A stretch of 64,000 nucleotides of DNA. Origin: Rhabditoides inermis. Taxonomy: Eukaryota > Nematoda > Chromadorea > Rhabditida > Rhabditidae. The DNA lies in the NCBI GenBank assembly GCA_963966185.1, contig CAWZYM010000155.1, forward strand, positions 72,501-136,500. The letters run 5' to 3'. The position numbers and the translations under genes were made by a program. Below the pieces are notes generated by a model that saw only the letters and a program-made list of their open reading frames with translations, was not told the origin of the DNA and did no database searches. Below are positions 36,835 through 60,200 of this stretch, one piece after another. Numbering within the stretch: position 1 is the first letter of the stretch; the number at the start of each line of letters is the position of its first letter.

Positions 36835-37057
36835 TCAAGCGAGCATCCAAGATCCACACAACAACGCACCTGAAACGCATTTCATACGTTTTTAATGTAC
36901 AGCAATTTCGCGAAGTGTGTAGATATTCAGGCAGAGTTGTTCTATTGATTCACCATCAAAGAGATATTTCTGTCCCATTAGGCTCGCAGGGTGTAAGCGT
37001 TCCCATCGATACCAATTCGCAGTGCGTGAAAAGTTGGCGGTGATTCCAGTCACCTAG

Positions 37058-37061
<4 letters not shown>

Positions 37062-37122
<61 letters not shown>
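37062..37122. repeat. (GA)n microsatellite
   Basis: GA array with one A-interruption in non-coding DNA upstream of the 36.8 kb start. Confidence 0.95.
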
Positions 37123-37127
<5 letters not shown>

Positions 37128-37512
37128 AAAAGGGAGATCTCGAGAGAACGGCTTTATGGCCTTTCAACAGGTGGTGGCTTGAAGCAACACCAATTCATTC
37201 GTTTTCCTCAGAAAAATGAGAAAAAAGAGTGGAAGACGGATAAGAAGGGATGGGATTTATGGTTCACATAGTTTTTTTTTCGAATTGATAGCAAGCGTTC
37301 ACTATACGAGAATGTTTGTGATATGAAAATGAGTGTGTGATCAAAAAACTGGTATAGCAAACACGATAGTGATTCACAGTCATGACTCAATACACTCGAG
37401 TTCATGAAAAAGGGTTCAATCGAGGAAATGCGGATCGGGAAATCAATTTCGCAAAACGCGGACAAGTCACAACAAATCAGTTGTCATCAAAGGTAAACAC
37501 CCGAAAATGGGC

Positions 37513-37554
<42 letters not shown>

Positions 37555-39539: not shown

Positions 39540-39760
39540 GAGAGAGTGGCTAGAGAGCACGCGAGATCGAGAGAGCCAGACACTCCCGCCGAGAAACTCC
39601 GAGTCGTGCAAGTACTTTTGTGATTGCGAGAGCAGCGAATTAGCATTGTAACAAAGACGAGAGAGTGCGGTTCAGCACGCGATCAGCGAGAGAGCGCCAG
39701 ACGGCGAGCGCGCAGCCAGCCGGGAGTCGGGCAGTCGGAAGGCGTTCACTTATAATCGAT
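39540..39760. promoter_or_regulatory. GC-rich island, possible regulatory region
   Basis: CpG-rich sequence (cgagcgcgcagccagccggg) just downstream of the exon at 39937. Only composition supports a regulatory role. Confidence 0.2.
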
Positions 39761-39936
39761 AGCCAAAGGGCGGATTGCGAGCAGCCGAGATTCATCGGGT
39801 GGGATTTCGGTTGGAAGAGAGAGGGTTGTTTCGAGTATCTCACTCCCTCACACACATGCAACACTGACGCACACGCCCACACACACACAAACACATGTAG
39901 TAAACAAACAAAAAAGTAAACAAGTAAACAACTCAC

Positions 39937-41552
39937 GAGTGGGAATCTTGTTAGCCCAACGTGGCGGGGGGAGGTGACATGGTAGTCATCGAGGGCTGCG
40001 TAGGAGGGTTCGGGGTCGGGAGGAGTGCGGGTGGAGGAAGAGGACGAACTAGAGACAAGAGACACATCATATTACTGGAGACATCCAGGTTGTATTAGTA
40101 ATTAGTGATTGGACTCTTTTGAAACGTCTACATGCAAAAAAGAGGATGAATTTGATACGTTTCATTGCAACCACCATGCCAATGAAGTTCCTCGAATTCT
40201 GTCATCGCAATATTTGCAGATTTGATGAAGAACTTTTTTCTTTGCCCGATATTATTATGACAATTCAAATTCCCCATCCGAATTTCGCCGATCACATCGT
40301 TTGTTAGGTATTTTTTTGAATTCTGCTACAATGATGAAGAGGGCGATAAAAGGTCTCGAATATGGTTGAAAGTAGCACTGTAGCGATACTCTCGAAAATC
40401 ACAAATGATACCGACTTATATGCTATTCAGGCTTTGCTGTGTTGAGACAAAATGAATTTTTTTTTCGTGTTTTCTCGCATACGTTTCACTGCCACTACAT
40501 CATTCAAGGAAACATTGTAGTTTTAATGTTTCTATGTAAAACTTGAAAAAAAAATAAAGAAACAAGTTGTACTGACTCGGCATTGCTTGCCTGCGCGGAG
40601 TCGGAGTGTGTCTGGACCGAACCGGAGAGGATAGCCTGGCGGGGAGACACCATGCTGCAAGAGGGGTGGACGGTTCAGAACACCACCCACATAACATCAC
40701 ACATACTCTCGAGGCACCGACCAATTCACAAACTGTCGTGTTCAGTTGTGAGCAGATCGGCACTCAGTTCACCCACCTCCTCTGTATCTGTTGTATGATC
40801 ATCTCCCGCGGGGAGAGGACACAGCCTGGTGTTCCCTCCTCCCTGCCTGCCCCACTGGAGAGGGGCCGCTTCGGACACGGCAGACCTTCTGTAAGAATGT
40901 CTTCAGTCAGCTCCTCGATTCACATAATGGTAAACGCTCGGTACCATGAGGAACAGATTGGTTTGCATTGCGCAATGAACCCTTATAGAATATTTATTTG
41001 GCAATCGTCAATTCATGCTCCAATATCGCTGAGAACAACCAAAAACAGGTAATTAGGAAATGACTTGGCGAACACTAAGAAATATATAACCCACTGGGTG
41101 TCTTTCTGCTGCTCGGCTCCGCATCTTCATTTGAGAGAGATGAGAAGTCGAGATGGAAGGGAGACGGGGAGGAAGCCTGATGGTACGACGTTCAATCAAT
41201 AAGAAGAAATAACAATATTTTTACAAACGAGAAATTAAGATTCATGTTCTCGTGTTTACGTCAAATACGTTTCTCCCAAGACATATAAAATGGAGGGTTA
41301 AATTATCGTCAATACCAACCGACACCCGTTTTTTTAAACAAAAAAAAACATATAATTAGCGCTCACGTGTTTCTCCTCGATGAAATATCGGATGGCTAGA
41401 CCACGGATGAATCGGTTGATGCTGCGACGCGTGATCTAACATTGATAAGCAAATAAAAATCTATCTGATCGTTATGGTGAATGCATGAAAGTACTCACCT
41501 TGAATCGCCTACTGCGATAGCGATGTCCGCCTACCAACTGCGTTTCCTCCAT
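39937..41552 (-). CDS. alternative 5' exons of the 33-41 kb gene, or separate small gene
   Basis: Six exons join in phase: 41499-41552 (ATG at 41552, 15 nt after an ATATAG acceptor), 41367-41435, 41095-41176, 40777-40888, 40577-40654 and 39937-40048. They code MEETQLVGGHRYRSRRFK, then ITRRSINRFIRGLAIRYF (a basic amphipathic helix), LPCPKRPLSSG, SPREMIIQQIQR and DPEPSYAALDDYHV, ending at a donor in phase 0. No stop follows. The phase fits a splice to the exon at 35844 (WAVQSPLERS) but not to those at 36834 or 36099. So this is best read as the 5' end of a long form that skips the short form's first two exons; a separate gene with an unseen last exon is possible. Confidence 0.6.
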
Positions 41553-41824: not shown

Positions 41825-43257
41825 GTGCTCCCTTTCAGGCGAATGGGGCGCAGGTGTGTTGGGTGAGGGAGGATGAATAGAATAGGTAATGACAGGGACG
41901 GCAAATGAGCGACGTCCATGTAAGAAGAGCCCTCCACAAACAAACATCATTGATTGCAACTCAACATTACTATTATTCAAGTGCAACAGAAATAACGCTA
42001 CAAAGAAATGGTGCTAAACGCTTCACACAACGATATTGATTCGCAAAATGTAGACAAAACGCACTGCTATGTAGGATAAAAAATATTTCGGTGGCAACAA
42101 AGAGGATCGTAACGTAGAGCTCGGAATGTAGTCTAAAAGATACGTGGCAGGGAGAGGACACGAAACGAACGCTTGAGAATGAAAGAGAGGGGAGAGAGAG
42201 AGAGAGAGAGAGAGGGGGAAGAGAGAGAGGAGAGAGAGGGGGAAGAGAGAGAGGAGAGAGAGGGAAAGATAGGCGTCGGGTCGTCATGGCTACACACTGG
42301 CCAGTCGTTGAGGTGTGAACGAACAGATGCGATGATCACTGCAATTTGCATAAGTGCCTTCAATCGAACCGAACACAGTAGCTTCAGTCAGATAGTATTT
42401 GTCAGGTAAAAGTAGAGTGAATAGGTAATGAAGTGGAAGAAGGGCAAGCCCAGCAAAAGTGCAATAATCAGATACGCTTTTATTTCTTGAGGCAATTTAG
42501 TAATTCCTGGAAACATTACTACGTCTGATTGACTTGACTACCAGACATTATTGAATAAGAAAAAGTAAATAAGATAAGAAAAAAGAGGAATTCACTCACC
42601 CAGAGTGTGAGAGATTGAGATAGTTATAGAGAATCAGAGGCTCCGATGCCGGGAAATGAAAGAACACTTTCTATCGAGATTGCGAAGTGTGTTATTCATG
42701 GGAGCTGAAAGTGTATGTGAGTTAAGCATGCATCAGACGTCAATTGAATACCATATGAGAGTACCCATTTGCGCGACCAGAAAGCAGAAGCTCGAAATGT
42801 AGCCACACAAAAAATGTTCTCTCTTGCGTGCCGCAGATTCGCTAGATTGATTTTTCAAACTTGTTTCCAATAATTTGGCACGTTGACCACGCAATATTTC
42901 TCTTCTGCCATAGCTGATAAGCGAAACTTGTTCCAAATATTTATTTTATTCATTACAAAATACGAGTAAAATCATTCATCAATGATCAATATAGCATCTT
43001 GCGTTTTTGTAGGTATGTAAGTGATACAATAAGTGAACGTAATAGCAATCATTTCTTATTACAATGAAAAACACGGAACATTGTTAACAAAACGACGACT
43101 AGGAAATACGAGAGAGAATTGTGGGTGAAAAAGAAAAGTGAGAGTGAGTGCAGTGTATGAACATAAATGTGAATGGCAATGATGGTGAGGAAAATACTGT
43201 TCAGTTACAGTACGATATCTACAGTGTTTAAAACACAGCATTCAAACTACAGTAAGC
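41553..43257. other. intergenic between the two minus-strand genes
   Basis: GA-rich DNA (41745-41821, 42189-42268) with no exon found. AATAAA on the minus strand at 42940-42950 could end transcripts of the upstream 43.3-60.2 kb gene. Confidence 0.5.
41745..41821. repeat. (GA)n microsatellite
   Basis: Interrupted GA/GAAA array upstream of the 41.5 kb start. Confidence 0.95.
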
Positions 43258-43480
43258 CTAGAGTGTGACAGCGAGGACGATTCCAATGGTAATGAGGACA
43301 GCGAGAATGACAATGGGTGCGAGGATGAAATAGCAGAAGACGAGACAGCAGCTGCGGGGGTTGTCCCTCCACTGAGAGAGCGGCGGACAACCACAGCACC
43401 CATCCTCCTCGTCCTCCTCCTCCTCCGATGGTCCGCCACAGCAGCCACATGGTCCGCACGAACCCAGTGGACCACACAGA
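43258..43480 (-). other. alternative last exon B (Cys-rich transmembrane anchor)
   Basis: After GGTTGCAG, also phase 2, the exon reads LCGPLGSCGPCGCCGG, an acidic run (EEEEDEED), CCGCPPLSQW, then a hydrophobic helix (CYFILAPIVILAVLITIGIV) and a stop. It is phase-compatible with the same donor at 43892 as exon A and lies downstream of A's stop, so it needs alternative splicing. The cysteine cluster next to the membrane could be palmitoylated or metal-binding (inference). Confidence 0.65.
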
Positions 43481-44615
43481 CTGCAACCACGGGGGGTTAG
43501 AAAGCAAACCGAGGACAGTGAGGTCACACTAGAACTGTAAGTGAAAGTCGTTGTGATTAGTGTGTATTAGTGCAAACACATTGTCACTCGTCACTCCAAC
43601 AGTAAGAGTGATTATTAGTGAGTGATTAGAGTTCGAGGTTGAAGTAGAGCCATGTGAGTATGCATATCAATATGATAGCGATGATAATGGGAATGAGGGT
43701 GCACAGCCAGAACTTGAGTTTGTAGTTGGGGGCCTCGGCACCGTAGTACGAGGTGCGGTTGCGTATTCTAGAATACCATGAGAAGTCATGCAGTGAAAAA
43801 AGTTCCATCTGATTTTCAAATCACTGTGTAACTGCATACATGATACATGTTCATGCGTTTTTTGTTCATTCAGGAATGTCATCTATCATACCTGTAGTTG
43901 GCGTCTCCGACCCTCTTTTTCTGCTTCTTCCCGCGTGGCTGTCTGTCCATCGGCTCCGCTCCGCGACCTAATCAGAACAGTTAGAATATGCAAATGAGCT
44001 CGTTTTCCCACCTGTGAGCGGACGACGTTCGGGGTAGAAATCACGATCATCATCTGGGAAAGAGGTGCGGTGATATACGAAGGGAAGCCCCGCCCACCCA
44101 AGCTCCGCCCCAAGCCTCACCTCTCTGTTCCTCCACGGCTCGGGGCGACTGGAATGGTGCGCGGGGGGTGGGCGCGTCGACTTCGCGCGAGTTGCGCGCC
44201 GCCTCGCGTGACTTGCGCGGCTCCGCGTCTCCCGAGAGACGAGACGGACGCGGCTGGTACGCAGGCGGCTGGAGTATCACATTGTATAGTCACAAATAGT
44301 GAGTGTTGCAAGTTGCTACATATTGGTGTGATTGTTAGGAAAACTGTGATGAACATTTTAAATCACTCATGAAACGTACTTACAAACGTATGTGGGAATC
44401 GAACAATTTTTCAACGTGTTATTCAGGAAAATAACACGACTGACTCTCTGGTACTGTGCGTGTGCCTGTTCCTCTCCCGCCATGTATCCCTGGCCTCTTC
44501 CCTCCGTCGACGGGCGTTCACCACTGTTCCGGAGGATTCCACCCCCTCCCCCTCCTCCCTCTCCCGACTGACGAGCAGGCTGGGTCTGCAGGGCCTGCAA
44601 GGAGTGGATGAGAGA

Positions 44616-44660
<45 letters not shown>

Positions 44661-47600
44661 AGAGGGAGAGGGGGAGAGAGGGAGAGAGGGAGAGAGAGAG
44701 GGGAAGAGATAGAGAGAGAGAGAGAGACTCACAATAGGGACCCTCTCCACCCTGGCTGGCCGCTCGCTCTCCGTGTCCCAGTCGCTACCGTAGTCCTCGT
44801 CCCGTCGGTGCGGGGGTGCCGTCGGTCTGATGAGGGAAAATTGAAAACTGAGTTTTACAAAAACAACAAGCCTTCAGACTTGATGTACTAGACACCAAGT
44901 TTTGCTTTTTCTGTATATACACTTAACATACAAGACTATACACACAACATACAAGACTGCGTCTCTGGTTCATTGAAAATCCGTTCAATTACGAGTAAGT
45001 TTCACCAAAATTATAAGACCACTTTGAGCAAGTTACTCTAATCAATAGTTTTACTCTGTTGCCAACAACTCATCTTTACCCTGTAAAATGAACAGGTGTT
45101 TATAATGAAAATGATGTCACGCACCTGTATCCTGCCTGCTGTGTGGGGTCGGGATACCTCTGTTCATAGGGGGGCAGCTGACCCTGCGGACCCTGCCAGG
45201 GTGAGAGGCCATCAGAGGTCGGGGCGAGAGTCTGCTCCGGCTAGAACAAATAGTTACTCACAAACACTTTGATGGATCTATCACATATTGCTGAGTGAAA
45301 CCAATTATCTCCTGCAACCACTGAATGCCATTTCAATACAAGGTAAAACATATTTCGTATCATCTCCGCAGGTATCTAGTTTCTTTTTCATACGTGATAC
45401 TTCGCGAATCCTCTGGACATTGTTTGATTCAACACCGTAAATCTTAACCTATCTTTATTCTTTTGCGCTTACGAAAACTTTATAACGTGAAGCATACTCA
45501 CCCCTTTCTTGCTTCCGAGATGCACTCTGACCTGTATGGGACTGCCCGGCTCGCGCATCTCGGGAGGAATCATGTACGTGTTCCTGCCCTACAACATCTT
45601 CTATCAACACACGCACTTCGCGTCTCACCCACCTGTCCACTCTGTCCTCCTCCCCCTCCTTCTCCCCCCGCCTCCCCCTCTCCGGGCACAGTCTCATAGA
45701 CGACTGCCCGCGGCTGTTGCTGAGGAGCAGGCGCCACCGGAAGGTTCTCGTATCTGACAAGACAACGGCAACTCTTTTTAGAACAATATAGTTAGTATAT
45801 GAATGTTCCAGCAGTTCTCCTGTTCAAAACGTCCCGCACCATTTGCGCACAATGTTTCATACGGAAGCGCTCAGCGCTTGTCATTTGAGATAACGTAGAG
45901 GTTAGGTTTTACCACATCGTATGCAACGTTATGCACCTGGAGAGTATATAACTATTTTTATTACTCTATGTAGTTACGTTTCACAAAATTCATATATATG
46001 ATTCAACATTTTTCAAGATAATATAGGCGGATTGAAGTTTTCACACTTGAAATGAAATATAACTCCGAATTGATTCCGAAACAAAATACCTTGGCAGCGC
46101 AGCGGGTGCCTTCTGTCTCGCGCCGTGTTCCAGGTAGGATCTGGAACGACTACAGTGACAAGTGTATTCGTGTCGGGACCCACCTCCTCTGCACATCTTC
46201 GCGCGTCTGCCGCAGCATCTCCTCACGGGCACGCATTTCACGATCGATCTACAGTCAGCAATAAATCAATAATTCAATATTTGTCCACCGTACCATCTCC
46301 TGTTTGGAGTCTACGGCACCCATGAGACGATTGGGTCGAGTGGACTGGTCCCGCATCTAGACACAAAATTATTTATCTTTACACATACTAGAAACGTGAG
46401 TCTAACGTTTCCCTAATGTTCCAAGTTTGTCTCTCACCTGTATGCCGGCTCCATTCTGTGCCTGCCCCGGTTGTCCGTAGGTGGTCACCACCTGAATGAG
46501 AAAAGAGTGAAAATCTGAATTCTGAAATCGACAACTGTAACTCTGCCGTACCGTCTTGGAGTGTTGTCCACCGGGTGGCATCTTGTTAATCACAGAGTAC
46601 GCCTGAAAACTAAACGTTTCGCAAGTATGATATGTATGATGTTATTTGAACATTTGCAATGAAATGAGATATCATATATTTGTAATTGCACGTATGTATC
46701 ATTCCAAATACCAAATACCCACCGCGTTAGGGTCCTGTGTGGTTATGGTGCGAATGACCTGAAAGTTTGTGACTTACAATTACATCGGGATGAACATAAT
46801 AAGTAACAGATCTGCGGGTATCAACAAGTGCGATTACTCTCCAATCTCTCTCTTATGCCGTGCTATGCGCAGTGGGGCGAACCTGTCTCATCAATTATCC
46901 CATCGAGAATCGATAGCATTGTCGCAGTTGTTTCTCTTTTTCATCTCCCGGTCACACCTTCTCTCCAAGGCCTATCATACTAAATCAAACCGCGCAGAGA
47001 ATGAGAATGGGTGATTATAATAATGGGTGTTACTTATCCTATAACTGCGTTGTTACCAGATTCAGAAATACTGGAAGAGGAACGGAACATGGAATGGAAT
47101 AATGTCATATGCTAATATCTATGAACGAACCTCTACCCCCTGTCCAGTGGGTGGTTTCGGGGGTGGCACTGGTGGCTTTCCATGGGAAGACGAACCGATT
47201 GGAACAGAGCCCTGCAAGACATGTCATCAAAGTACAATCTATCGAATTCGGTTTGAGTGTGGCCACAGTAACAGTTGAAGTTATTAATAATCGGGAACTT
47301 TTTTTATTATTTCCGAAATACGTTTCGCAAGCGTGTCTTAGGATCGGTCGAATTTTACTTAATAATGAAAGCAGTATGCTTTTTTGATTTCGAAAAAAAT
47401 AACCTTTGATCGCGGCGTGGATTTCGAAGAGTTGTTGAGTAAGAACTTTTTCATTTAGAAAATCAGTTGGAATACAGGGCGTAGCGATGGAAAACAGAAT
47501 GAGACAATGTTGAGACGATTGGCAACACTAATCTGGTTAGCCAGTATAGGCAGTAAGTGATCTAATCAATCAGCCGATGCGTGTAGTGATCAATTGCGGC

Positions 47601-49556
47601 GCGAGAGAGATCTATGAACCGCTAGCCGCAGATTTACGGCTCTCTTTGGCATAGCCGCCACATAACACATAACATACTCTCATGTTTCCGAAAGTATGTT
47701 TTAGTTGTCTGGCGAATGAAAAGTGTGTATACAACAATGACAATGGGACGCGTAAATATTCGGTATACGTTCCATCGTACCAATATGTTCTCAGTGATTA
47801 GTGCGTGAACAGTATACGACAGATATCCGACATATAGTTCTTATATGTTACTATCAATCAATATCTATGTAATGTGATCATTCGCACCTCTTCGGGGGTG
47901 TGCAGGTTGTGTCTGGTGAGACGGGGCTGCGAGTGACGCTGGAAGGCCGAGTCGTCAGCGTCACTGAAGGACACATGTCACTCGTCTCCCTTGTTACCCT
48001 GGTTCCTTCTCCCTCTCCCAGGTTGCCCCCCCCCCTCACTCTATGGTGTCGTTGATGAGTGTCTCGTTGAGTACTCGTCTGCCGGGCGATCGAAGGACCA
48101 CTCCGTCCCCGATCGAGGCAACCTGAATTGTGAATAGTCAGAATTGCATTCTCTCACAATCATACTCTTTATCAGTACGTTTCACGGATGTATTATGTGA
48201 TTGATTGGTGCGGAACAATAATTTCCACGACGTTCTACGTGTTCCAATAAATTCACGAAATCATTCATTCACTCAGTGATCGGTGATCGGTACATACATA
48301 CTGCTATCCAATGCTTTTCTTTCGCAACTACGTTTCAATTGCCGAATACAATAACATCTTCACAAAAACAATAATCTTTTCTTGGTCACGATTTCTTGTA
48401 TCATTGTTAAAGTATTATTGTACGTTTCATTCGTCTGCTATACATTTGCAACAAAGACACTATTAGAGTCTTAATTTAGGTTTCAAAATAACGATCTCAC
48501 CCCCGGAATAGTGGCATAGGCGGTAGTCTTGGTTGTTTCCTTTCCGTTCGCGTCCCTACAGATGTATTGATCAATTACTTATTGATTGATAGTCGATCAA
48601 TTATCGATTAACCTGGTAACTTCCGTGGTGGTTGTGGTGGACTCGTGGAAAGATCGAGGACGCGTAGGCTGCAGCTGGAAAATGTTATAATTGCATTTTG
48701 TATGTGTATTTGTTTATACGTTTCACAGTATTAAAGGTAGTGTACCCTCTGAATCAAATATAAAAAATATCACAAATGTATTATCAATGTCTTTTAGAAG
48801 TATTTTTTATGTCGTTTATGGTTGTTTGTTTTAAAAAATAATGAAATTGTTGGTTGTTTTAAAAAATAATGAAATTAAAAATTATCAAACTTTTATTTTA
48901 ATCCAACATGATACGCATATTTGCGCAACGTTGTGAGTTATGATTTTTAACATCATTCAACATATCTAATAATAATAATAATATTTATTACCGCGTATAC
49001 TATATATATGAACACAGGACATCTTACTGCGTTTAGCATATAATTTCCTATCAGCTGTTTTCGCCAGTTTAGTAAAAGAAACACATAGTAGAAATGTTAT
49101 ATAAAATAAGAATGACATAAGAAACAATATATAAACACATGCGAATAAATTGTCTTGAATGAAACAGCCGTTAGTGTGGTCAAATTGTGTAACTTCGTGC
49201 AGTTGTGCACACACCCCCGAGCTGATTAAAAGTTATTAGTTTCTTCGATTTCTCACTCCAATATTCAAATAGTTTTTTAAAACTAAATTGTTTCAAAATA
49301 TATGTTTGCATCATCATAATATACTCATTGAGTCGTAAACAATGACATGTTGTATCTACACATGCACCCAGATTCAGAGGGTACACTACCTTTAATAGAT
49401 TCATCTTTCAAGTTTGCAACGCAATATTGCTTCGTCTTCATTGAATACGTTCTTAATTATTTTGATATCAATATAATGTTGCTCTCTCTCTCCTTTCTCC
49501 CTCTCCCTCTCTCTCCTCCTCTCTCTCTCCCCCTCTCTCTCTCCCCCCCTCTCTCT

Positions 49557-49610
<54 letters not shown>

Positions 49611-51367
49611 ACCTCCTCTTCCTCTCTGTCTCCTGCTCGACTGCTGCCCCTCGATACCACGTGGTGGATGTGAGAGCGAGTGTCCGTGTCGTACACGTAT
49701 CTGATTATTGATTGATTATCAATTAATTACGTCATCAGCATCGAAGCTTCGAAACCTCATCAAGCGTGAATAAGTGTGAGTATTGATTGGTTGACGTGAT
49801 TATCGATTGCTCTCACCTTATGACAGCTGCATCAGTGGTCGAGTCCCCACTGCCAGGGGAGGGAATGTTCTCCACTGCCACCAGTTCGATACTGCAATTT
49901 TTTCCTTTTGTTTATCACGTATAATGTTTAGGAATTTTGACTTACGTGAATGTTCCGAGACAGACTCATCTTTTTGTAGTATTCGTATTCGTGTGATGTA
50001 CTCAAAAACAAATTTCATAGATTTGATTGTTCCTTTTCTTTGTTGAGTAGCAAGATACACTTTTTTCTCTACGCTTATAGTAAGTAAGCGATTGGAAGTA
50101 GTGACTGACATTTTCTGACATATCAGTCTGACATATCCAATACACAACAATTTTAACTTCTGCTCTATTCATACGTTTCACAAATGTAAGTTAGCAACAC
50201 GTGCACATCACGGACTTCAAAAGCCGGTATGTTGCGGTAAAAAAACATGAACGGAAACTAGTACTAGCAAAATAATGGTATTATTTAAATAGTATTATGT
50301 ATTATTCTAACAGTACTAGTACTATATTATAATAAACAGTATTACTTTTACCACACACGAAATTTTCTCACGGACATAAACCAGACAGAATGTTGAACTA
50401 AAACACCATATCCGATAAAGTACACTTTGATTTTTTCATACGTTTCATGCCCAAAATATATCATGGTTACAAAGATTGCTTTAATATTGTTTTATAGTGC
50501 ATCAGTATTAGCAATGAAAACCCTTGGTTGATGACTATTTCAATCGATCGCAGGTCATATGATTCACAAAATCACACTACTCCACCCACCCCTGTTGCTC
50601 CGCATCCGGCACCGTCTGTCTGTACGTCAGCGTCGTCGGCCCGACGTCGCTCTCCCGGTACGAGACGTACGTCGTCGTACGAGTCTCCGTCGGAAGCTCG
50701 TACCTGAACATCGTACGTACGATCTTTGCCTCTGTCTCGCGCTCTCCTGGCAAGCTATCAATAAAGCGTGAGAAAGTCAATGTTTGTTCTCACGTCATGG
50801 TTTTCGTGGTCGTTACCATCCGCTCCATCTCGGGAGATGGCTGAAAGCGATCGATAAATCAATAAATCAATAACAGTAGTAGAGAACAATCGATATCAGT
50901 ATTCTCACGTAGCGAGAGAGTGTGTGTGGAGGGGAATATCAAATAGTGAGAGCGTCGCTCGAATGTTGACAACGAGTGATAAGGAATAGATAAGGATTAG
51001 CGGGAGTGATCGGGAAGTATGAGTTGGCCACTCACTCCCATCGATAAGAAAATCCAGGGTCCGCAAGAGCCAAAACAACACTGATAGTATTAGTTACACC
51101 AACAGGTTCAACCCGGCTTACCGACACCTACATATAACACTGATAACCATCACAATCAAGCAAAAGTATTCACGAACGGTAGTGAAATCAGTTGCTGTCA
51201 GTTTCATCAAACCCAGTACAGAAACCTATTTCAAACACTCTGTAAAACTTTATAAAACTTTCAAAACACGTATTCGGTTTCTCAAAGACTGACCGCACCA
51301 ATACACTAGTACAGTTTCCGGCGCGCATTCTGCGTAGATGACTGTGCTATGTTGAATAATCGCCGAA

Positions 51368-51409
<42 letters not shown>

Positions 51410-52128
51410 GCTTGAGTCGAGTGAGTCAGCGTCTTGCATGCATGCGAGACAGGAAGGCAAGCCATAAAGGGACCGTGTGCAAACACACGCGGATTGCGCG
51501 CATGCCCGGACCATAGATACGTTCCAGCCGTTACGTTAACAGTCGCGGCGGGACTGTAGGGGTAATTCGATGTATGTTGCCTCAAAGCGACCAAAATATT
51601 ACCACCGAAATCATTACAAATACGTTACGTTTCACTAAACGTATGATACGGAAACGGTCAGCGTGAGACAATTAGTAGAACTATCGACGAATAAACGTGA
51701 AGCACGCTGTCGGAGATTTTGACTGCGCCCTTTCGATCTTTTTGCAAATGTGTCAGGAAAAAGGTGTAACTGCACCAATTGAAAATGAAACTACTATCAT
51801 ATCGTACTACTTGGCGTTACCAGGTATTTCGACGTGCAATACATACCAATATGATACCAAACAACGCCACCTTCTCCCTCTCCCTCTCCCTCTCCCTCCA
51901 CCCCTCTCCCGGCACGGGGCGATGCGGACGGGAGTAGTCGAACGAGCGAGGCTGACCATTCAGCAACGGGGTCTGCAAGGAAACTGTTATCGGCTGTTTG
52001 GTTATTCACCACGGTCGCATTGTGTTTCAATCATTCACCTTATCTTCGCCTCCCACCAGCTTGATTCCGGCCTCTTCCACCGGACCAGAGAGGTTGATGG
52101 GAGAGGAGGCCAGTACGGCACTGCAAGG

Positions 52129-52172
<44 letters not shown>

Positions 52173-52190
52173 GAAAGAAAGAAAGAGAGA

Positions 52191-52225
<35 letters not shown>

Positions 52226-53561
52226 GCTCACCGTGTGACGACGGGGGCGTTGTAGGTGGGTCTGGAGTAGTTCCACGACCTCGGCTGTCCGTTCAGGAGA
52301 CTCGTGGAGGGGAGAGTGGGATCGACGTCTTTCTTCAGCGAGGCTGCGGTGGTTGGAGAGAAGCGGTTGAACGCGGATGCACCTGAACATGTTTGCCACA
52401 TGTCACATTCTTTTCTGATGGAGTACACCAGGTGATCAGAATTAAAAGGTAAAAGATCATCTATATGTTTTGATGCGGTTGATACGTTTCTCCTGTTGCA
52501 TAACTTTGAATTCATGTAACTTAGGTAATATCCGTTCTATTTGCATTTCGAGAACTGCTCTACCATGCTCCCTCTCCTCTCACCTGTGTCTATGTGATAG
52601 TCTAACGCATTCGATGGGAGAATCATGGATGAGGAGGTGGCTGAAGTGAGGTGTGAGTGAGAGAAAATTATGGCAGTATACGCTAAATACGAACTCTAAA
52701 AGAGACGCGATTTTCACACACTATTTTTCAATCACGGATTGATTTGACAGAACACTTGGTCGTTTCCATTCTCTTTGGAAATTTGACTCGATAAAAGCTT
52801 ATGTTTTTAATCGATTACCAAGTTTCGCAATAACAAATAATTGTGTCAATGCCATACGTTTCACAGCCATCATAAGCTCTAGCCGCGCAAGTTGTCAATA
52901 ATACGGCGGTAGCTGTCATTTCAACACCAAACCCTCTCACCCTTTCCATTCAGGACAGTCTCCCCAGTAGCAGTGGATGAATCAGAGAGGACCGAGGCAG
53001 CATCCCACTTGGTCATCTGCGACGGAGGGGGCGGGGCGAGAGGGGGCGGGGGAGCGAGGAACGTCGGGCGGCTGTCGTCCCTTTGCTTGTCGTCGGAGAG
53101 GAGAGGTGTCTCTGTCCGTCTTTCCTCCTCCTCTCTCCTCACTGGCTGCTCATTGTACGTGGGCCGTGAGTAGTCCCAGCTGCGAGGCTGACCGTTCAGC
53201 AGACACCACGGCTTGTCTTCGCGTTTCGGCAATGTCGTCGAAGAGTGTTCGTGCTGAAAGAGCTACTTGCTACTTGGATTAACTTTTACAACGAATGATG
53301 CGATCAAGAAAATCAACCAGAAATAATGAAAGACGCAGCTGACCTCCTGCATCGTTGGCAAGTCCGAGACGGTAGCCTCCTGATTCCTCTCGTTGCGCGG
53401 TGGGTGGTGCAGGAGAGTCTCCTTCTCTTCACTCTTCTCCTCCACTCTCGCACCCTTTCTCCTTATTGGTGGCGCGTTGTAGGTGGGCCTAGAGTAGTCC
53501 CACGAACGGGGCTGGCCGTTCAGGAGGGAAGAGTCTGGAATCGACAAACTAGATAGATAGG

Positions 53562-53616
<55 letters not shown>

Positions 53617-56600
53617 GACCCACCCCTCCTCTGCCTGTGCACAGTTGGCATCTCGGCTGCCCGGATTGTCTCGTTCGATCCCATTGAGAAGTCCTCGTCC
53701 AGAGTGTCATTTGCCCTGCAAAGGGGTTGTTCAAAAGAAAAACTATTCTTAGTTCTTAAAATTCTTAGCACAATGTACCCACTTTTCCCTGTGAATCGTG
53801 GGATCCGTTTCACCGCGGATAGTAGAGGAGACGCTCTGATCGGTCTGCAATGTTGCCATGCCTATCCCCCTATCATTGTATCGATTCCCCTCCCCACCGA
53901 TGTGTCGAGTACACTGCCAGTGTCGATCGCCTCCCTCGCTTCCCGCTCGATCGCCTCCAACTCCGGAGACTCGATCGGTGCTGTGTCTATTAGACTCGGG
54001 GTCTGTGGGGGGCCGGTGGAATCCGACTCGGGTGCTGCGGGCGCCGACTCCGTTGCCGGCAGAACCGACTCGGGAGGCGCTGGCCACTCCGAGTCACTCT
54101 GTGCCTTCAATCCGGGAGGAGAGGGCATAGGCAAGTGGGTAAGCGAGGAGCGGGCAGAGGGGCTAAAACATCACATTTACAATTAAATACAAAAAAAAAC
54201 AAAAATAAAGGAATGCAAACAAAAATCAAACCACATAAAACATGCCTCATGACGAACGAGCCGGGCCGGCTTCTGCGCTCGTCCCGTATGTTGACTATGG
54301 TCGAGGCGCCTGTCTTGGTGGGAGAGTAGAGGGGAGAGTGCGGCTGGAAACAAACAAACGTATAGCATTTACTTATTGACATTTTTACTCGTACGTACCG
54401 CGATGAGGTCGCTCATGCGACTGCTGCGGCCGCTGCCTGGAGAGGGGTGGTGCACGCCTAGAGAGGAAGGGACAATTAAAAAATCACATTTTTATCAAAG
54501 AATTCTCACTCACCTATCCGTCTGCTCATGCTCACATATACAACACTTGCAGCATGACTTCTCGACTAGCCACTGGCTAATTCAAGTATTCAAGGCCGTC
54601 GCTTCTACGCATGCGAAACTAATGTGATAGTGATAGTCACAATATCATAGGAAAGGTAAACTGATAGACAAATACGAATCAACATCAGAATAACAGGAAC
54701 GAGACACCCCACGAATATTCTAATGAGAATAGAGAATGGATATCACAGCCGAAAAACCACAAAACATAACACCTTTTATCCGGCGATTGGTACATTCATT
54801 TGAAAGTTTCAGTCACCACGCGCATGGAGTTCGTACAATTATGGAACCCACCAATGGTGATGGAGTCCGTCAAGAGTGCGGGGAGAGGCGGGGGCAGACT
54901 GGCGAGGGACACCGCATCGGGAGTAGAGGGGACGGGGGGAGGAGAAGAGGGGAACGCCTGCAACATGCGAAGGAACACTGAACGGGCAGCATCGGGCGGC
55001 GTCGGAATGTAATGGGATGGAAGAGTCGGCAGCACTAATGTGATCGGTTTATGAGTAGGACAGCAGAAAGCAACTATGAGAAGAGAAAGAAAAAATAAGT
55101 GAAATACCCTCTGTGCAGGCCTTGCTCCACTCCAGCAGACTCCTCCACTGCACACGAGATGCTCGAGGAGAGAGGAGAGGGAGCGGTGCGTGAGAGAGTA
55201 CTCGTTCACTCGGAGGTGCTCTTTCAGAGCATCTTCTGCAAGCAGTCGCTGATTGCATCTTTTTTCGTTGTTGTCATTATTTGGTTATCGGAAGCAATGG
55301 TTCTCACCCTGTGGTCTTCGGAACATGCTCGACGAGTTCACCTTGAACACTGGAGCGTCGTGCAGCTCGATTCTGAAAATAAGTATTCTGAAATATAGTT
55401 GCCTACTGAAATATTTCATTCATTTTCCACTGCATCTTCTCAGCACTCACACGGGCAGCTTGCGAAGCCGTCTGGGCGGATTGTTATGAAAACATGGCTA
55501 TATACACAGTTTTTATGCTGATTCCGAGTATGAACCTAACTTCGGAATAGTCTCATATAGTCACTGATCGGAATATTCTCTGACAGGTCTCATTGATCTC
55601 TATGCGAGGTTTTGCTCTATGCGAGGTTTTGTGTGTTGATATACACCCCTCTTCCGCCCTATCTCTCATTCGACCACTGCGTTTAATTGCTGTCTACCGG
55701 ACCCCTGGTCTCTCCCCTGTTATCCGTGCTGCCAGCCAAAAACTTCTCGCTACTATGGATTCTTTGATGTTGCCTGATTCGCACTCTCACGCGATTCTAG
55801 GTGATTTCAATTGCCCTGGCATCGATTGGCCAGCCGGTCAGTCTCGCCTCGCTTTTGATCGCGCGTTGCTTGATTTTTGTTCTACATTTTCACTCACTCA
55901 GACTGTTAGGGTTCCGACGATGGTCAGAGTCCCAGGTCAAACGCCACATATTTTGGATTTGGTCTTGGTTGATTCTCCTGACTTGGTGTCTGACAAAAGA
56001 GTGGGCGCGCCTGTCTCCACTTGCGACCATCTTCCTGTATTCGCTCGCCTCGCAGTGCATTCCCATGTTGCTTCCATGTCTCGCCCAGTTTATGTTTACA
56101 AGAAGGCCGATTGGTCAGCCATAAATGCTCGCATCGCATCTACTGACTGGACATGTGTATTCGCACACCGCCGGATTGATGAATGTTGCGATATTTTCGA
56201 GCAATTTATGCACCAGTGTCTGTCCGATTTTTGTCCGTCCGTGTCACACAAAGCTCGCTCACCCACTCTCCCTCCACACATTCGCACTCTGAGCCGTAAG
56301 GCATCTCGCCTCGCGTCTCGCCGGCCCATGTCGACTGACGCGCGCTGTGCCCGCAAGGCACTCCGCAGGGCACTCTATAGATGGAATTGTAAGAAGGAAG
56401 CGGCCCTTCTAGATAAGGGACCGAAGCCCTTTTACAGGCATGTGAGGAATAGGCTCAGTCCTGCAGATGGGATAGGCGTGGTGGTTGATTCGAGTGGACA
56501 TTTTTTACACGAGCCCGCTCAAAAGGCAGAGGCATTCGCGTCCTTTTTCGATTCAATCTACGCGTCTCACTCATCCTCACCCCCGGGTGACTCTCTCTCC

Positions 56601-59600
56601 CTCTCTGCCGCGTGTCTCTCTCACATTGACGTCTCACCGAGTATTGTCTGCAAGGTGATACGTGGTATGGCGAGTAAGGTGAATACATCCCCGGATGGAA
56701 TCACTCATACTTTCATCAAGCATACGATTGACACGATTGCATTTCCACTATCTCTTCTGTTCCAACAATCCGTGTCCGTTTGCGCAGTTCCAGATATATG
56801 GCGTCTGGGTTACATCAAGCCGATTCATAAGAGCGGTCCTACCCATGACGTGTCTAACTATAGACCCATCACTCTCACCTCTACCATCAGTAAGGTTTTG
56901 GAACGAATTGTTGTATCTCAGATCACTGAATTCTTAGAACACAATTGCCTCCTATCGCGTCACCAGTACGGATTCCGTAAAGGTCGGTCCACCGCAGCAC
57001 AACTCGTGCAGTGTCACTCTCACTGGGCGCGCGACCTCACTGATGGAAAAGTAGTTGATTGTCTCTATGTTGATTACAAGAAGGCATTCGATACCATAAA
57101 TCACTCTATGCTTTTTGACAAACTTCACTCTATTGGTATCCGTGGCAATGCTCTCTCTTGGATCAAGAGCTTTTTGTGTGACCGGACGACCCACGTTCTT
57201 ATTGGAGATTCACTGTCTGCCCCCAGGCAAGTGAACTGTGGTGTGCCTCAGGGCAGCTGTCTTGGCCCTCTCTTGTTTAACATCTATATAAACGACATAG
57301 TGAGATCACTTCCAACTGGTATGCACTGCGTGTTGTATGCTGATGACCTCAAGGTCTATTTCTCGTTTGACCCGTCTGATGTGTCGGCGCACTCCGCCTT
57401 CCAGGCAGCAGTAGACGCGGTTAACAATTGGTCGCGCAAGTGGGGACTCACCATTTCAACCTCTAAAACGTACATTCTTCATTTGGGTAAAAGAAATCCG
57501 CGTTTTGTGTATTGTGCTGGCGGCACACCTCTTGAAGCCACTGTCTGCGTGAAAGACTTAGGTGTATGGATCTCTGACAGTCTTGGCTTTGACACGCATA
57601 TCTCTCGTATAGCAAACAACGCCCTGTGGTCGATCAATAACTTTCTGAGGGCATATCACACGCGAAATCTCACTGTCTTAGTGAGAGCATATGTTACATA
57701 TTTCCGATGCAAGTTGGAATATTGTACTGAGTTGTGGAACCCAACTAGCGTGCGTTTGGTGAATCTGCTTGAAGGCGTGCAAAGGTATTTTACCCGTCGC
57801 ATTTGCCAACGAGCTGGTCACCTATCTCTTGGATACTCTGAGCGTCTCCGCCTGCTGGGACTTGAAACTCTCGAGTCCCGTCGTTTCATCAATGACGTCA
57901 CGTTCATATACAAAGTCACTCACCGAGTTTTGCCTTTTGAATCTGATGGTGTATTCAATGTAATTCCAACATTCTCCAGACACTCACATAGTTTGCGCAT
58001 TGTCCCTTGTTTTGATCCAGCGAACAGACTACTCACGAGCATTCATAGAGCACATAGTTTCTGGAATAGCCTTTCATCTGAAGTCGTGGGAGTGAGGGAT
58101 GCGGGGCGGTTTAGAGAGCTCGTCAGGGCTGGTTCTAGCGGTTTCCCGTCGTCTCGGATTCGTGCATCATGACTGGAGAGTCAGGGCGTCTCTCACACGT
58201 CGTCCCACCTGCACTTCTTGTGTCTCTTTTAATTTCAACGTTTATTATATGTGACCGTCACTCTGCCAGTACCCCCTTGAACAAGGCGCAGTAGTACCTC
58301 ATTTTGTTTTAGTTTTACCATTTTTAACTTTGTCACACAATCGTATTATCACCTATTTCGCCAGTGTCCATCCGCAATTTCTTGCATACTCTATCAAACA
58401 TACATGCGATAAACTTATTATTATTATTATTATTATGATATTCGTGCAAATCTGAAATTCGGTATCTGTCAATCATTAAAGCGCTGTTTGGTACACGTAA
58501 ACAGTGATGTAGAGAGTGTTGCCGTCTTTCATTTCAATTGCAATGCCTGCGAACCCACAGGGTGGAATTTCGAACTTTCAACTTCCAAAAAAGTTATAAC
58601 TGTCACGTGTAGTTGTAGTAAAACAATCACATACTGATCTACTCCATGACATTCTAGGCGTTTTCTGCCGACAAGTTCTTTCCATTTTCAGATTCGCACA
58701 ATTATCAATGAGGATAATGGATAATGGGATAAGTGTCAGGATAATGGGACATGCGATAAAAAAGAAAACCGTCGAAACGGCAAAAACTTTTGCCGCATCG
58801 ATTATTGCATCGATGGTCATTTCTAACTTCCCAATTCACTATCCATTCGGCTACGCTGCTGTTGTTGACAGGTCATTTCCATGGGTAGTCTATTCGGTAG
58901 GTGTCCAAGTTTTTTTCAAACTACTATTCCGGTAAAGTTATGCTCATATTCGGAATCAACATGAAAAACTGGGTATATGGCCATGGTTTCATAAGTTTCC
59001 GGCAAAACGGGTGCGCAAGCTGCCCGTGTCAGCACTTACGTTTCACTGATGCGCTGAAAATTATTGTGATACAACACTTCAATTGGAACGGCGGACCAGC
59101 ATCAACAAATAGGAATGAAAATAACACTATCTGAAATGTGCACGTTTACTCTAGTCACTACAAAAAAGTAAGTACGAATCGCACTCGCACCTCCGAAGGA
59201 CATTGATGGGTGGAGGCGCGCCATCCGAGCCAGTCATCACAACACAGCGAGTGGAACGAAGGTGGGAGGGGAGAGAGAGCAGCGCCTGGGAGATCGTGTG
59301 TTGTAGGTTTCAAGATCCGGAAGATACCTTCTTCAACCCCTCCTCCTGCTCAGTTGTGATCCTCTTTGTCTCACTGAACAGCACGCAGACTGCGTCCACC
59401 CGGATATCGGAGGAGCAGAGGAAAGAGAGTAGGTGGGGAAACGATCTGCAAGAGAACATCGTGTTTCCCTTAAACAGTTCTATATTCTTGATTCACTCAC
59501 TGGCTGTCGGTGGCGGGTGCGTCTATGACGACCGGCCGGAATTTCCCTGCCACTCCTCCATTCAACACGTACACTTGGGTGGAGACAGGAGAGTCCTGTG

Positions 59601-60200
59601 TGAGATGTGGATATTCATGAAATCTTCTATCAGTGGAAGTGGAGTGTGTGCGTTTCAGGCATGGTATGTGTAATCGTAATCAGTAACATATACAGTTACT
59701 TCAGTTTCAGATGTAACCAAGTAACATGAATAATTTTTAGCGAGAAAGAAAGCCCGTACGCTGACCTGTGTGACGGCCCACCGCTGTTCGTCCTCTATCC
59801 GGCCCCCGAAGTGCACCTGACAGAGGGCATCCACCAGCAGAGAACGACCGACCTGCAGGAAAAAGCTACTCTATTCCATTCTATCACATTCTTCTATACA
59901 TCTATTCATATATACATTCATTATATCACATTCTATTATATTCTATGTGCCTCTATTACGCTCTCTTCTGGGAATGAAGGAGAATATCCATCCCACTCAC
60001 CTGTGACGGCCCGAGCAGCAGTATCACTCGGTCATGGGGTGGTGGCTCTGGAATGGTGGTGGAGGAAACGGATATAGAAAGGGGTCCGTCGACCTACCTT
60101 GCCCAGTTCCTCCAGCATACACCACCCTGACATGCTTGTCCACCTTGTGCTCCCTTCGTGGGAGGGCGGCGCGCGGCAGCCGACACTCCACGGGGGACAT
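43258..60200 (-). CDS. AIG1-like (degenerate) GTPase-domain protein with repeats and C-terminal membrane anchor
   Basis: Forty-five exons join in phase to 1,452 or 1,479 aa, depending on the last exon. The first nine are 60098-60200, 60001-60047, 59766-59852, 59501-59595, 59328-59445, 59191-59285, 55451-55471, 55308-55372 and 55108-55235. They code a G-domain-like unit: P-loop GPSQVGRS (residues 47-54, Lys replaced by Arg), VVIDAPA (104, the DTPG place), VVMTGSD (TxxD, 168-171) and FKVNSSS (G5-like). The order and spacing fit the AIG1/IMAP family. A long low-complexity, Pro/Gly/Arg-rich part follows with four LLNGQPRS repeats, then one transmembrane segment at the very C-terminus. The ATG is 4 nt after TTCTCTAG. 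Likely a tail-anchored cytosolic protein. The 21-nt exon 7 is the weakest piece. A retrotransposon lies antisense in intron 6. Confidence 0.72.
43626..43767 (-). other. alternative last exon A (transmembrane anchor)
   Basis: After TTCTAG, phase 2, the exon reads IRNRTSYYGAEAPNYKLK, then a 23-residue hydrophobic helix (FWLCTLIPIIIAIILICILT), then LYFNLEL and TAA. With the KKQKKR of the preceding exon the basic side faces the cytosol, so this is a tail anchor with about seven residues beyond it. Confidence 0.75.
44615..44730. repeat. (GA)n microsatellite
   Basis: Impure GA array in an intron of the AIG1-like gene; CT-rich in the transcript. Confidence 0.95.
48731..49395. mobile_element. TTAA-flanked MITE, longer copy
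   Basis: Ends AGGTAGTGTACCCTCTGAAT and its inverted complement lie between TTAA duplications, within the intron between exons 49613 and 48674. The 660-bp interior is AT-rich with a TAA run at 48968-48982 and a short minus ORF without known motifs. The end sequence matches the 20.8 and 62.4 kb MITEs. Confidence 0.8.
49484..49612. repeat. (TC)n microsatellite
   Basis: TC-rich array on +, (GA) in the transcript, directly following the donor of the exon at 49613. Confidence 0.95.
51871..54957 (-). other. exons 10-21: disordered region with four LLNGQPRSWDYSRP repeats
   Basis: Exons are 54852-54957, 54399-54457, 54246-54343, 53898-54162, 53783-53844, 53624-53715, 53344-53534, 52941-53253, 52584-52640, 52232-52382, 52039-52120 and 51871-51972. 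The intron after 54246 would use a GC donor (AG|GCATGT). The word LLNGQPRSWDYSRPTYN appears in exons 53344 and 52941, as LLNGQPRSWNYSRPTYN in 52232 and as LLNGQPRSFDYSRPH in 51871, near residues 485, 562, 696 and 748. The first two copies have the same protein over NGQPRSWDYSRPTYN but differ at about eight synonymous codons, so the peptide, not the DNA, is conserved. The 3' limit of the last exon is uncertain (51871 or about 51846). Confidence 0.75.
52136..52222. repeat. (GA)n microsatellite
   Basis: Two GA arrays split by GAAA units form nearly the whole intron between exons 52232 and 52120. The transcript reads CT. Confidence 0.95.
55602..58172 (+). CDS. retrotransposon endonuclease/reverse transcriptase ORF
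   Basis: About 856 codons open without a stop. The N-terminal part is an APE-type endonuclease missing its first segment: ILGDFNCPGIDW, ILDLVLVDSPDLV and STCDHLPV (SDHxP-like) are present, but the early Asn/Glu motifs are not. The reverse transcriptase follows: YRPITLTSTISKVLERIV, QYGFRKGRSTAAQLV, DYKKAFDTINHSM, VPQGSCLGPLLFNIYIND and the catalytic LYADDLK near residue 580. The C-terminal block (VQRYFTRRICQ, LGLETLESRRFINDV) is usual for this class. It has no upstream ORF1. The intact frame points to recent insertion; this copy is probably not autonomous because of the 5' loss. Confidence 0.92.
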   Translation: MRGFALCEVLCVDIHPSSALSLIRPLRLIAVYRTPGLSPVIRAASQKLLATMDSLMLPDSHSHAILGDFNCPGIDWPAGQSRLAFDRALLDFCSTFSLTQTVRVPTMVRVPGQTPHILDLVLVDSPDLVSDKRVGAPVSTCDHLPVFARLAVHSHVASMSRPVYVYKKADWSAINARIASTDWTCVFAHRRIDECCDIFEQFMHQCLSDFCPSVSHKARSPTLPPHIRTLSRKASRLASRRPMSTDARCARKALRRALYRWNCKKEAALLDKGPKPFYRHVRNRLSPADGIGVVVDSSGHFLHEPAQKAEAFASFFDSIYASHSSSPPGDSLSLSAACLSHIDVSPSIVCKVIRGMASKVNTSPDGITHTFIKHTIDTIAFPLSLLFQQSVSVCAVPDIWRLGYIKPIHKSGPTHDVSNYRPITLTSTISKVLERIVVSQITEFLEHNCLLSRHQYGFRKGRSTAAQLVQCHSHWARDLTDGKVVDCLYVDYKKAFDTINHSMLFDKLHSIGIRGNALSWIKSFLCDRTTHVLIGDSLSAPRQVNCGVPQGSCLGPLLFNIYINDIVRSLPTGMHCVLYADDLKVYFSFDPSDVSAHSAFQAAVDAVNNWSRKWGLTISTSKTYILHLGKRNPRFVYCAGGTPLEATVCVKDLGVWISDSLGFDTHISRIANNALWSINNFLRAYHTRNLTVLVRAYVTYFRCKLEYCTELWNPTSVRLVNLLEGVQRYFTRRICQRAGHLSLGYSERLRLLGLETLESRRFINDVTFIYKVTHRVLPFESDGVFNVIPTFSRHSHSLRIVPCFDPANRLLTSIHRAHSFWNSLSSEVVGVRDAGRFRELVRAGSSGFPSSRIRAS
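55602..58436 (+). mobile_element. non-LTR retrotransposon, 5' truncated
   Basis: One long ORF is followed by about 245 bp of 3' UTR and a (TTA)n tail (58412-58436), as in CR1/jockey-like elements. There are no LTRs. A 17-bp direct duplication (ctctatgcgaggttttg, twice at 55598-55631) marks the 5' junction. The element lies on + within intron 6 of the minus-strand AIG1-like gene, between exons 59191 and 55471. Confidence 0.9.
58437..59190. other. remainder of intron 6
   Basis: No exon is supported. A minus ORF at 58578-58820 has a hydrophobic stretch but no matching splice signals. Confidence 0.4.

Follow-up and report, generated by a model that had tools for sequence, protein, structure and literature searches.

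Gene structure

A window of 64,000 nucleotides from the nematode Rhabditoides inermis was analysed (assembly GCA_963966185.1, contig CAWZYM010000155.1, positions 72,501 to 136,500). Its minus strand carries a gene, at 60200..43626, for a long protein with an N-terminal domain of remote AIG1/septin-type GTPase descent, an extended stalk with a repeated tyrosine motif, and a C-terminal membrane segment. An earlier note, made from the sequence alone, had proposed a 45-exon model that keeps phase throughout. Rebuilt splice by splice, with the minus strand read in three frames, the gene had 45 exons, an unbroken phase and a single terminal stop (4,389 nt). Splice sites were picked to hold phase, so that phase agreement alone is little proof. 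The end of exon 21 was shifted from 51847 to 51871, where a GT is present in both haplotypes (see below), because the donor at 51847 is lost in the other haplotype. The revised coding sequence comprises 4,365 nt and encodes 1,454 amino acids. The phase of exon 44 is accepted by two last exons, at 43767-43626 (isoform 1) and 43480-43258 (isoform 2). Gene features and neighbouring elements are listed in Table 1.

Table 1 Features of the gene and its surroundings, in window positions.
Feature	Position	Strand	Content
Exon 1	60098..60200	(-)	Start ATG at 60200; in-frame TAA 51 nt upstream
Exon 2	60001..60047	(-)	beta-1 and first half of the phosphate-binding loop (P-loop; ..RVILLLGPSQ)
Exon 3	59766..59852	(-)	Second half of the P-loop (VGRS..); joined P-loop GPSQVGRS
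Exon 4	59501..59595	(-)	beta-3 and degenerate G3 VVIDAPA; DAPA at 59523-59512
Exon 5	59328..59445	(-)	beta-4 (DAVCVLF) and conserved box (RITTEQ)
Exon 6	59191..59285	(-)	beta-5 and G4 (MTGSDGAPPP)
Exon 7	55451..55471	(-)	21 nt
Exon 8	55308..55372	(-)	beta-6 / G5 region (FKVNSSSMF)
Exon 9	55108..55235	(-)	Final G-domain helix (secondary structure inferred from alignment)
Exons 10-15	53624..54957	(-)	Beginning of the stalk; GC donor of exon 12 common to the two haplotypes; sole exonic indel in exon 13
Exons 16-21	51871..53534	(-)	Stalk part with repeats; exon 21 ends at 51871
Repeat 1	53476..53526	(-)	Exon 16: LLNGQPRSWDYSRPTYN
Repeat 2	53152..53202	(-)	Exon 17: LLNGQPRSWDYSRPTYN
Repeat 3	52249..52299	(-)	Exon 19: LLNGQPRSWNYSRPTYN
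Repeat 4	51925..51966	(-)	Exon 21, 14-residue core: LLNGQPRSFDYSRP
Exons 22-44	43892..50840	(-)	Remaining stalk, Thr-rich and Pro/Gln/Gly-rich
Exon 45	43626..43767	(-)	End of isoform 1, with anchor FWLCTLIPIIIAIILICIL, then 9 residues
Alternative last exon	43258..43480	(-)	End of isoform 2, with a linker rich in Cys and acidic residues, anchor FILAPIVILAVLITIGIVL, then 4 residues
Two AATAAA signals	42940..42950	(-)	At 42950 and 42945, 3' of both last exons
Retrotransposon	55598..58435	(+)	In intron 6, bystander; endonuclease PF14529 and reverse transcriptase PF00078

Second haplotype and selection

The genome assembly searched comprised 172.6 Mb in 599 contigs, with the window on contig C155 and a second copy of the gene on contig C158. 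Twelve Wnt exon matches on 3 contigs mark this genome as an animal one, Wnt not being known outside animals. This copy was colinear with the window at 88-98% identity, with one flank block at 100% (BLAST blocks >150 bp). Because the colinear blocks extend through the gene and both flanks, we take it as the other haplotype and not as a paralogue. All 46 exons (the 45 and one alternative last exon) are in frame there (exons at C158 578577-597350). AG acceptors were found at 45/45 positions and GT donors at 42/44, the remaining two being that of exon 12, which is GC in both haplotypes, and that of exon 21 (51847), which is changed. Intron 12 (54163-54245) is apparently of the GC-AG type in both.

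Between haplotypes, the 45 exons differed at 143 of 4,368 aligned sites and by one indel (21 bp, in frame), compared with 410 of 6,517 sites and 121 indels in 42 of the 44 introns. These counts omit the two longest introns, which exceed 1.2 kb in the window or 1.5 kb on C158. With every exon in frame and a single exonic indel, the 45-exon model of the earlier note was upheld.

The ratio of non-synonymous to synonymous substitution rates (dN/dS) between haplotypes was 0.19 for the whole protein. It was 0.07 for residues 1-253, 0.10 for residues 254-480, 0.35 for the repeat-bearing residues 480-780, and 0.075 and 0.085 for the two later parts; the alternative last exon gave 0.12. When 142 substitutions were dealt at random, a mean of 97 codons changed and 3.3 stops arose; the observed numbers were 47 and 0. 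The gene is real and under selection. A decaying pseudogene, whose motif losses would simply be decay, might be suspected from the non-canonical G1 and G3 described below, but it is contradicted by the low dN/dS in the domain and by the deficit of stops and changed codons, and we regard it as hardly credible.

Haplotype divergence was uneven across 42881-60200: introns 1-21 differed at 254 of 2,105 sites (12%) and introns 22-44 at 156 of 4,412 (3.5%), again with the two longest introns omitted, and exons 29-40 were identical. Extra DNA was present in the other haplotype, ~4.6 kb in intron 21 (C158:585351-587500 and 587501-589933; opposite window 51370-51365) and ~0.9 kb in intron 17, near window 52726-52680.

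Two adjacent genes could have been falsely joined, a first one (G domain and repeats) ending near exon 21 and a second one (Thr-rich stalk and anchor) starting near exon 22. With 1,030 bp in the window and ~5.6 kb on C158, intron 21 is long; reading through the end of exon 21 gives a short hydrophobic end and a stop, exon 22 contains in-frame ATGs, and the homology presented below is limited to exons 2-9. However, neither AATAAA nor ATTAAA occurs between exons 21 and 22, the two haplotypes differ in how the read-through of exon 21 ends, and phases fit at every junction, though at sites chosen to fit. A false join is, in our judgement, quite unlikely, and the locus is treated here as a single gene.

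Homology of the N-terminal domain

Sequence searches of Pfam, NCBIfam and PDB with residues 1-253 returned only weak P-loop echoes and chance-level matches. Protein database searches, which depend on shared exact 5-residue words and covered animal proteins, found no relative at E <= 10 among the 7,987 candidates scored for the whole protein or the 980 scored for residues 35-250 of the other haplotype. When the genome was searched with the domain, all 15 matches at E <= 10 belonged to this gene and its second haplotype.

A family was found by another route. We recognised a pattern, V-x-TFADG-x-x-PPV followed by FKFNNSALF, which we took to be that of a fish protein family, and its typed consensus was used as query. 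This yielded 1,104 proteins at E <= 0.01 (1,659 candidates), 120 of which were listed. Among these 120, named sources were mostly fishes and other vertebrates, with one crustacean (P0099), and many were labelled AIG1-type or septin-type. A profile of the 120 matched the N-terminal domain with 20.1 bits (E 1.9e-8, one comparison), in the order P-loop, then beta-4 to G5. The best of 5,000 shuffled sequences reached 3.8 bits, and the best of 5,000 that kept the P-loop 13.7 bits. For residues 111-253 alone the score was 10.8 bits, and the highest among 5,000 shuffles was 6.2. Alignment of residues 35-210 to the family profile with hhalign gave a probability of 95.5% (E 1.3e-8) over 175 columns with 24% identity.

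Septin exons of the same genome, identified as septins by Pfam, scored 19.5 and 14.6 bits against this profile, and therefore the profile score alone fails to separate AIG1-type proteins from septins. The G4 and G5 words that the domain has in common with the family point rather to the AIG1 type. The predicted structure of family member P0001 had Toc34 (E 3.8e-5) and GIMAP7 (E 1.2e-4) as first matches and septin 2 as tenth, with template modelling scores of 0.3-0.5. These matches, obtained on the family member and not on the domain itself, and from a model with a mean predicted local distance difference test score of 72.5 (<50 at the P-loop start), would place the class. Judged by profile and alignment, the N-terminal domain belongs by descent, though remotely, to the AIG1/septin-type G-domain class, but falls outside its motif definition. 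The AIG1-like assignment made earlier thus held for descent, but the Pfam AIG1 model (PF04548) itself gave no match.

When the whole genome was searched with Pfam AIG1, neither of the 2 candidates scored reached E <= 0.001. The search for a canonical family member gave one weak match (E 0.14), to two exons that Pfam identifies as septin. Septin exons at C10:118296-118556 have a canonical P-loop (GQSGLGKS) and DTPGFGD, and lie above the Pfam Septin cut-off.

Nucleotide-binding motifs

The G1 motif is GPSQVGRS, in which K53 is replaced by Arg, outside the canonical GxxxxGK[ST]. G3 is DAPA instead of DTPG (G107 replaced by Ala), outside DxxG. Both had been read in this way in the earlier note, and both are present in the two haplotypes. 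Switch II is shortened, with residues lost relative to the family. Across 12 family sequences, 63 columns did not vary, 7 of these columns lying past the end of the domain's own piece. The N-terminal domain keeps 18 of the 63, among them both P-loop glycines, the G3 Asp and Pro, the R-x-T-x-x-Q box, the G4 T-x-x-D-G and the G5 N-x-S. The box residues R139, T141 and Q144 stand at family-invariant columns, which may correspond to the conserved box of GIMAPs. A GIMAP conserved box is named in PMC7053062. G4 is TGSD, without Lys, where the family has TFAD; T168, D171 and G172 are retained. A Lys-less G4 is common to the whole family and is therefore not a sign of decay.

The catalytic-position changes (K53R, G107A and the short switch II), together with the selection on the domain, are those of a pseudo-GTPase, and hydrolysis of guanosine triphosphate (GTP) by the domain appears unlikely. 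The G1 Arg is also present in yeast Cdc11 (aligned 5ar1 sequence). The crystal structure of Cdc11 is nucleotide-free, with the Arg positioned to clash with phosphate, and docking still predicts GTP binding (PMC10731463). Of the earlier proposal of a nucleotide-binding fold that no longer hydrolyses GTP, the second half agrees with the catalytic motifs, while nucleotide binding may or may not be retained.

The domain could still bind GTP or guanosine diphosphate, with the Arg touching the phosphates, and serve as a membrane switch that is slow or needs a partner for its activation, along the lines proposed for GIMAP2 and GIMAP5 with GIMAP7. This would agree with the presence of GPSQVGRS in both haplotypes and the retained family G4 residues. 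In Cdc11, docking seats GTP in the pocket despite the G1 Arg, and purified septin octamers hold guanine nucleotide 1:1 with protein (PMC10731463). On the other hand, the G3 Gly is changed to Ala, the switch II loop is shortened, the Cdc11 crystal is nucleotide-free with its Arg placed against the phosphate (PMC10731463), and the genome search found no canonical AIG1 partner (none at E <= 0.001, the one weak match being a septin). A GTP-binding switch is rather unlikely on this balance, and we favour a pseudo-GTPase.

Stalk and repeated tyrosine motif

Between the domain and the tail lie ~1,135 residues (11.9% Pro, 9.6% Ser, 8.7% Thr, 0.1% Cys), which are probably disordered. They contain four copies of LLNGQPRS[WF][DN]YSRP(TYN), each in a separate exon, the motif being LLNGQPRSWDYSRPTYN. 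The cores of the copies were compared in six pairs over 17 codons, or 14 where copy 4 was involved, and the proportion of synonymous differences was 0.38-0.72, versus 0.05-0.19 for non-synonymous ones. Between haplotypes, there was 1 non-synonymous change per 143.7 sites in the cores and 37 per 528.6 in their surroundings (Fisher P 0.0017); synonymous rates were the same in both. The protein sequence is conserved despite synonymous divergence, and the cores contrast with their surroundings; the four-copy 17-residue peptide is therefore a selected motif, not mere low complexity. The region had been described as ~1,200 low-complexity residues with repeats; the long repeat-bearing stalk was recovered, somewhat shorter, and its repeats have now to be read as this motif.

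All four copies contain YSRP, and two of the four a second YxxP (YNAP); copy 4 lacks the second tyrosine. YxxP occurs at 11 of 30 stalk tyrosines, with 3.6 expected (P 0.00035), and 6 of the 11 are within the repeats. Src and Abl kinases target sites of this type, which in phosphorylated form bind the SH2 domain of CRK/CRKL (PMC6029619). By analogy, the repeat tyrosines might be phosphorylated and recruit Crk-type SH2 proteins, a suggestion that we put forward as a weak one. As a hypothesis, LLNGQPRSWDYSRPTYNAP is proposed as a candidate docking peptide.

The four motifs may instead be structural, for example for a cytoskeletal or membrane partner and without phosphorylation, with the tyrosines incidental. 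The entire 17-mer is conserved, beyond YSRP and YNAP, and copy 4 does without the second tyrosine. By contrast, DYSRP or NYSRP stands in 4/4 copies and is of the YxxP type targeted by Src/Abl and bound by CRK/CRKL SH2 (PMC6029619). A structural role is a possibility to be reckoned with, although we doubt it, and a docking function is kept in the reading developed below.

A genome search with the repeats gave 16 matches, 12 of which were this gene and its second haplotype. The other four were weak, on contigs C365 (E 0.0028), C226, C238 and C383 (E at least 0.2 for the last three).

Predicted membrane anchors and alternative last exons

Hydropathy peaked at 3.03 at residues 1427-1445 of 1,454 in isoform 1, and at 3.08 at residues 1459-1477 of 1,481 in isoform 2. 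The sole other window above 1.6 was at residue 116 (1.62). By hydropathy profile, the protein is predicted to be tail-anchored, having a single C-terminal membrane segment, none elsewhere and no signal peptide. The locus thus has two potential anchor exons. The tail anchor proposed earlier was found, but the end at 43258 assigned to it is that of the alternative last exon, and the last exon at 43767-43626 also encodes an anchor.

In isoform 2 the anchor is preceded by the Cys- and acid-rich linker. This Cys-rich tail had no Pfam match. A match of the other tail to a pox entry protein (E 0.17) was dismissed as hydrophobic chance. Perhaps both last exons are used, and perhaps the Cys-rich anchor is palmitoylated.

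Neighbouring elements

The retrotransposon in intron 6, a long interspersed nuclear element with an open frame of 861 residues from stop to stop, is absent from the other haplotype, and is therefore probably a recent, still polymorphic insertion. The Rfam scan of the window gave 0 matches. A short word, GTGAAACGTA, and near variants of it were seen by eye scattered through introns across the window, perhaps derived from a small mobile element. Open stretches on the minus strand at 34475-40071 contain the similar phrases DFAALDTAVDEIGGKRNGFQPRRAGLLRFP and SYAALDDYHVTSPRHVGLTRFP and look like repeated exons of another gene; they had no Pfam match at E <= 0.01.

A proposed tail-anchored pseudo-GTPase scaffold

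With moderate confidence, we interpret the locus as a single gene for a tail-anchored pseudo-GTPase scaffold of ~1,450-1,480 residues. A scaffold role, rather than that of an enzyme, is plausible. Residues 35-253 are descended from the AIG1/GIMAP/Toc34/septin GTPases and have lost some of the parts that hydrolysis requires; with these gone, the N-terminal G domain would most likely be a fixed dimerisation or assembly module. The ~1,135-residue stalk would keep it at a distance from the membrane and would present the four kept copies of LLNGQPRSWDYSRPTYN and proline-rich stretches, with the repeat copies as docking sites. The choice of last exon would give one of two anchors, one of them Cys-rich and perhaps palmitoylated.

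Several observations weigh against this interpretation. The gene model is a prediction from genomic sequence, and AATAAA is present in introns 25, 29, 36 and 38, so that shorter transcripts are possible. In the Pfam scan of the N-terminal domain at E <= 10, AAA_29 alone appeared (E 0.029), and neither AIG1 (PF04548) nor Septin, whereas isolated septin exon pieces of 42 and 65 residues from the same genome do pass the Pfam septin cut-off. The comparison family was picked by eye before testing, although an E of ~1e-8 stays <0.001 even after correction for the thousands of families open to selection (24,736 in Pfam). No orthologue from another species, which would have pointed to wider conservation, appeared in the limited protein searches. 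The stalk around the repeat cores is weakly constrained (dN/dS 0.35, residues 480-780). Outside the repeats, YxxP is weakly enriched (5 versus 2.4 expected, P 0.09; in the other haplotype 6 versus 2.6, P 0.04), and therefore the SH2 reading rests on the repeats.

A more specific version is that an animal lineage has made an AIG1/septin-type GTPase into a nucleotide-free membrane scaffold in which the dead G domain clusters the protein, the four selected YxxP peptides recruit SH2 adaptors once phosphorylated, and the last exons pick between two membranes or lipid domains. This is speculative and we consider it unlikely as a whole. We know of no described signalling scaffold of a clustering dead G domain, YxxP peptides and alternative anchors. 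The combination of stalk and two anchors was not found in a limited literature search, and this and the empty, likewise limited, protein searches fit the earlier view that the architecture is undescribed.

The protein would combine an AIG1-type domain with a Lys-to-Arg loss, a membrane anchor and selected docking peptides. If the reading is true, such domains can be retained purely as assembly modules, and the gene would be a compact system for testing that. Several septins are documented as having lost GTPase activity, and among the GIMAPs there are members that bind GTP but do not hydrolyse it unaided (PMC10731463, PMC8201404). The gene adds to a patchy record of AIG1-type proteins outside vertebrates; among sponges, for example, they are reported in Dysidea avara, not in Amphimedon queenslandica (PMC11229196).

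Comparison with known systems

The closest likeness was to the AIG1/septin-type family used as profile, which is mostly vertebrate (e.g. si:ch73-170d6.2, immune-associated nucleotide-binding protein 13-like). The G domains are colinear over 175 columns, and the unusual G4 TxxDGxxPP, the G5 region FKxNxSxxF and the R-x-T-x-x-Q box are common to both. The family (8 sequences) keeps GxTGxGK[ST] and DTPGFGD, whereas this protein has Arg and DAPA. The family also continues into a helical, Cys-rich part, unlike the stalk with 0.1% Cys and the tail anchor found here.

To our knowledge, no GIMAP has a comparable stalk or repeats. The GIMAP/IAN proteins are alike in fold class, and GIMAP1, 3 and 5 carry a membrane segment at the C-terminus (PMC8201404). 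GIMAP2 and GIMAP5 bind GTP but are unable to hydrolyse it alone, and membrane-anchored GIMAPs have been proposed as scaffolds (PMC8201404). GIMAP5 has 307 residues (PMC8201404), compared with 1,454 in this protein, in which G1 and G3 are degenerate. In snails, AIG proteins can be as long as 1,286 residues, and membrane segments are predicted for 12 genes (PMC7053062).

The likeness to multi-YxxP docking proteins (p130Cas, DCBLD1/2) lies in the motif, with a weak YxxP enrichment outside the repeats here; no sequence homology was noticed, although no search aimed at it was made. p130Cas is a multi-YxxP docking protein. In DCBLD1/2, as in the tail-anchored protein proposed here, YxxP recurs on the cytosolic side of a protein linked to the membrane, with seven such sites in DCBLD2 (PMC6029619).

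From the septins, the domain differs in having no Pfam Septin match and in G4/G5 words that lean to the AIG1 type. The status of Cdc11 as a pseudo-GTPase was left open (PMC10731463). The septin pseudo-GTPases Cdc11 and Spn7 offer a parallel, as the G1 Arg is shared with Cdc11 and a degenerate nucleotide pocket occurs in a protein that is kept as an assembly subunit (PMC10731463).

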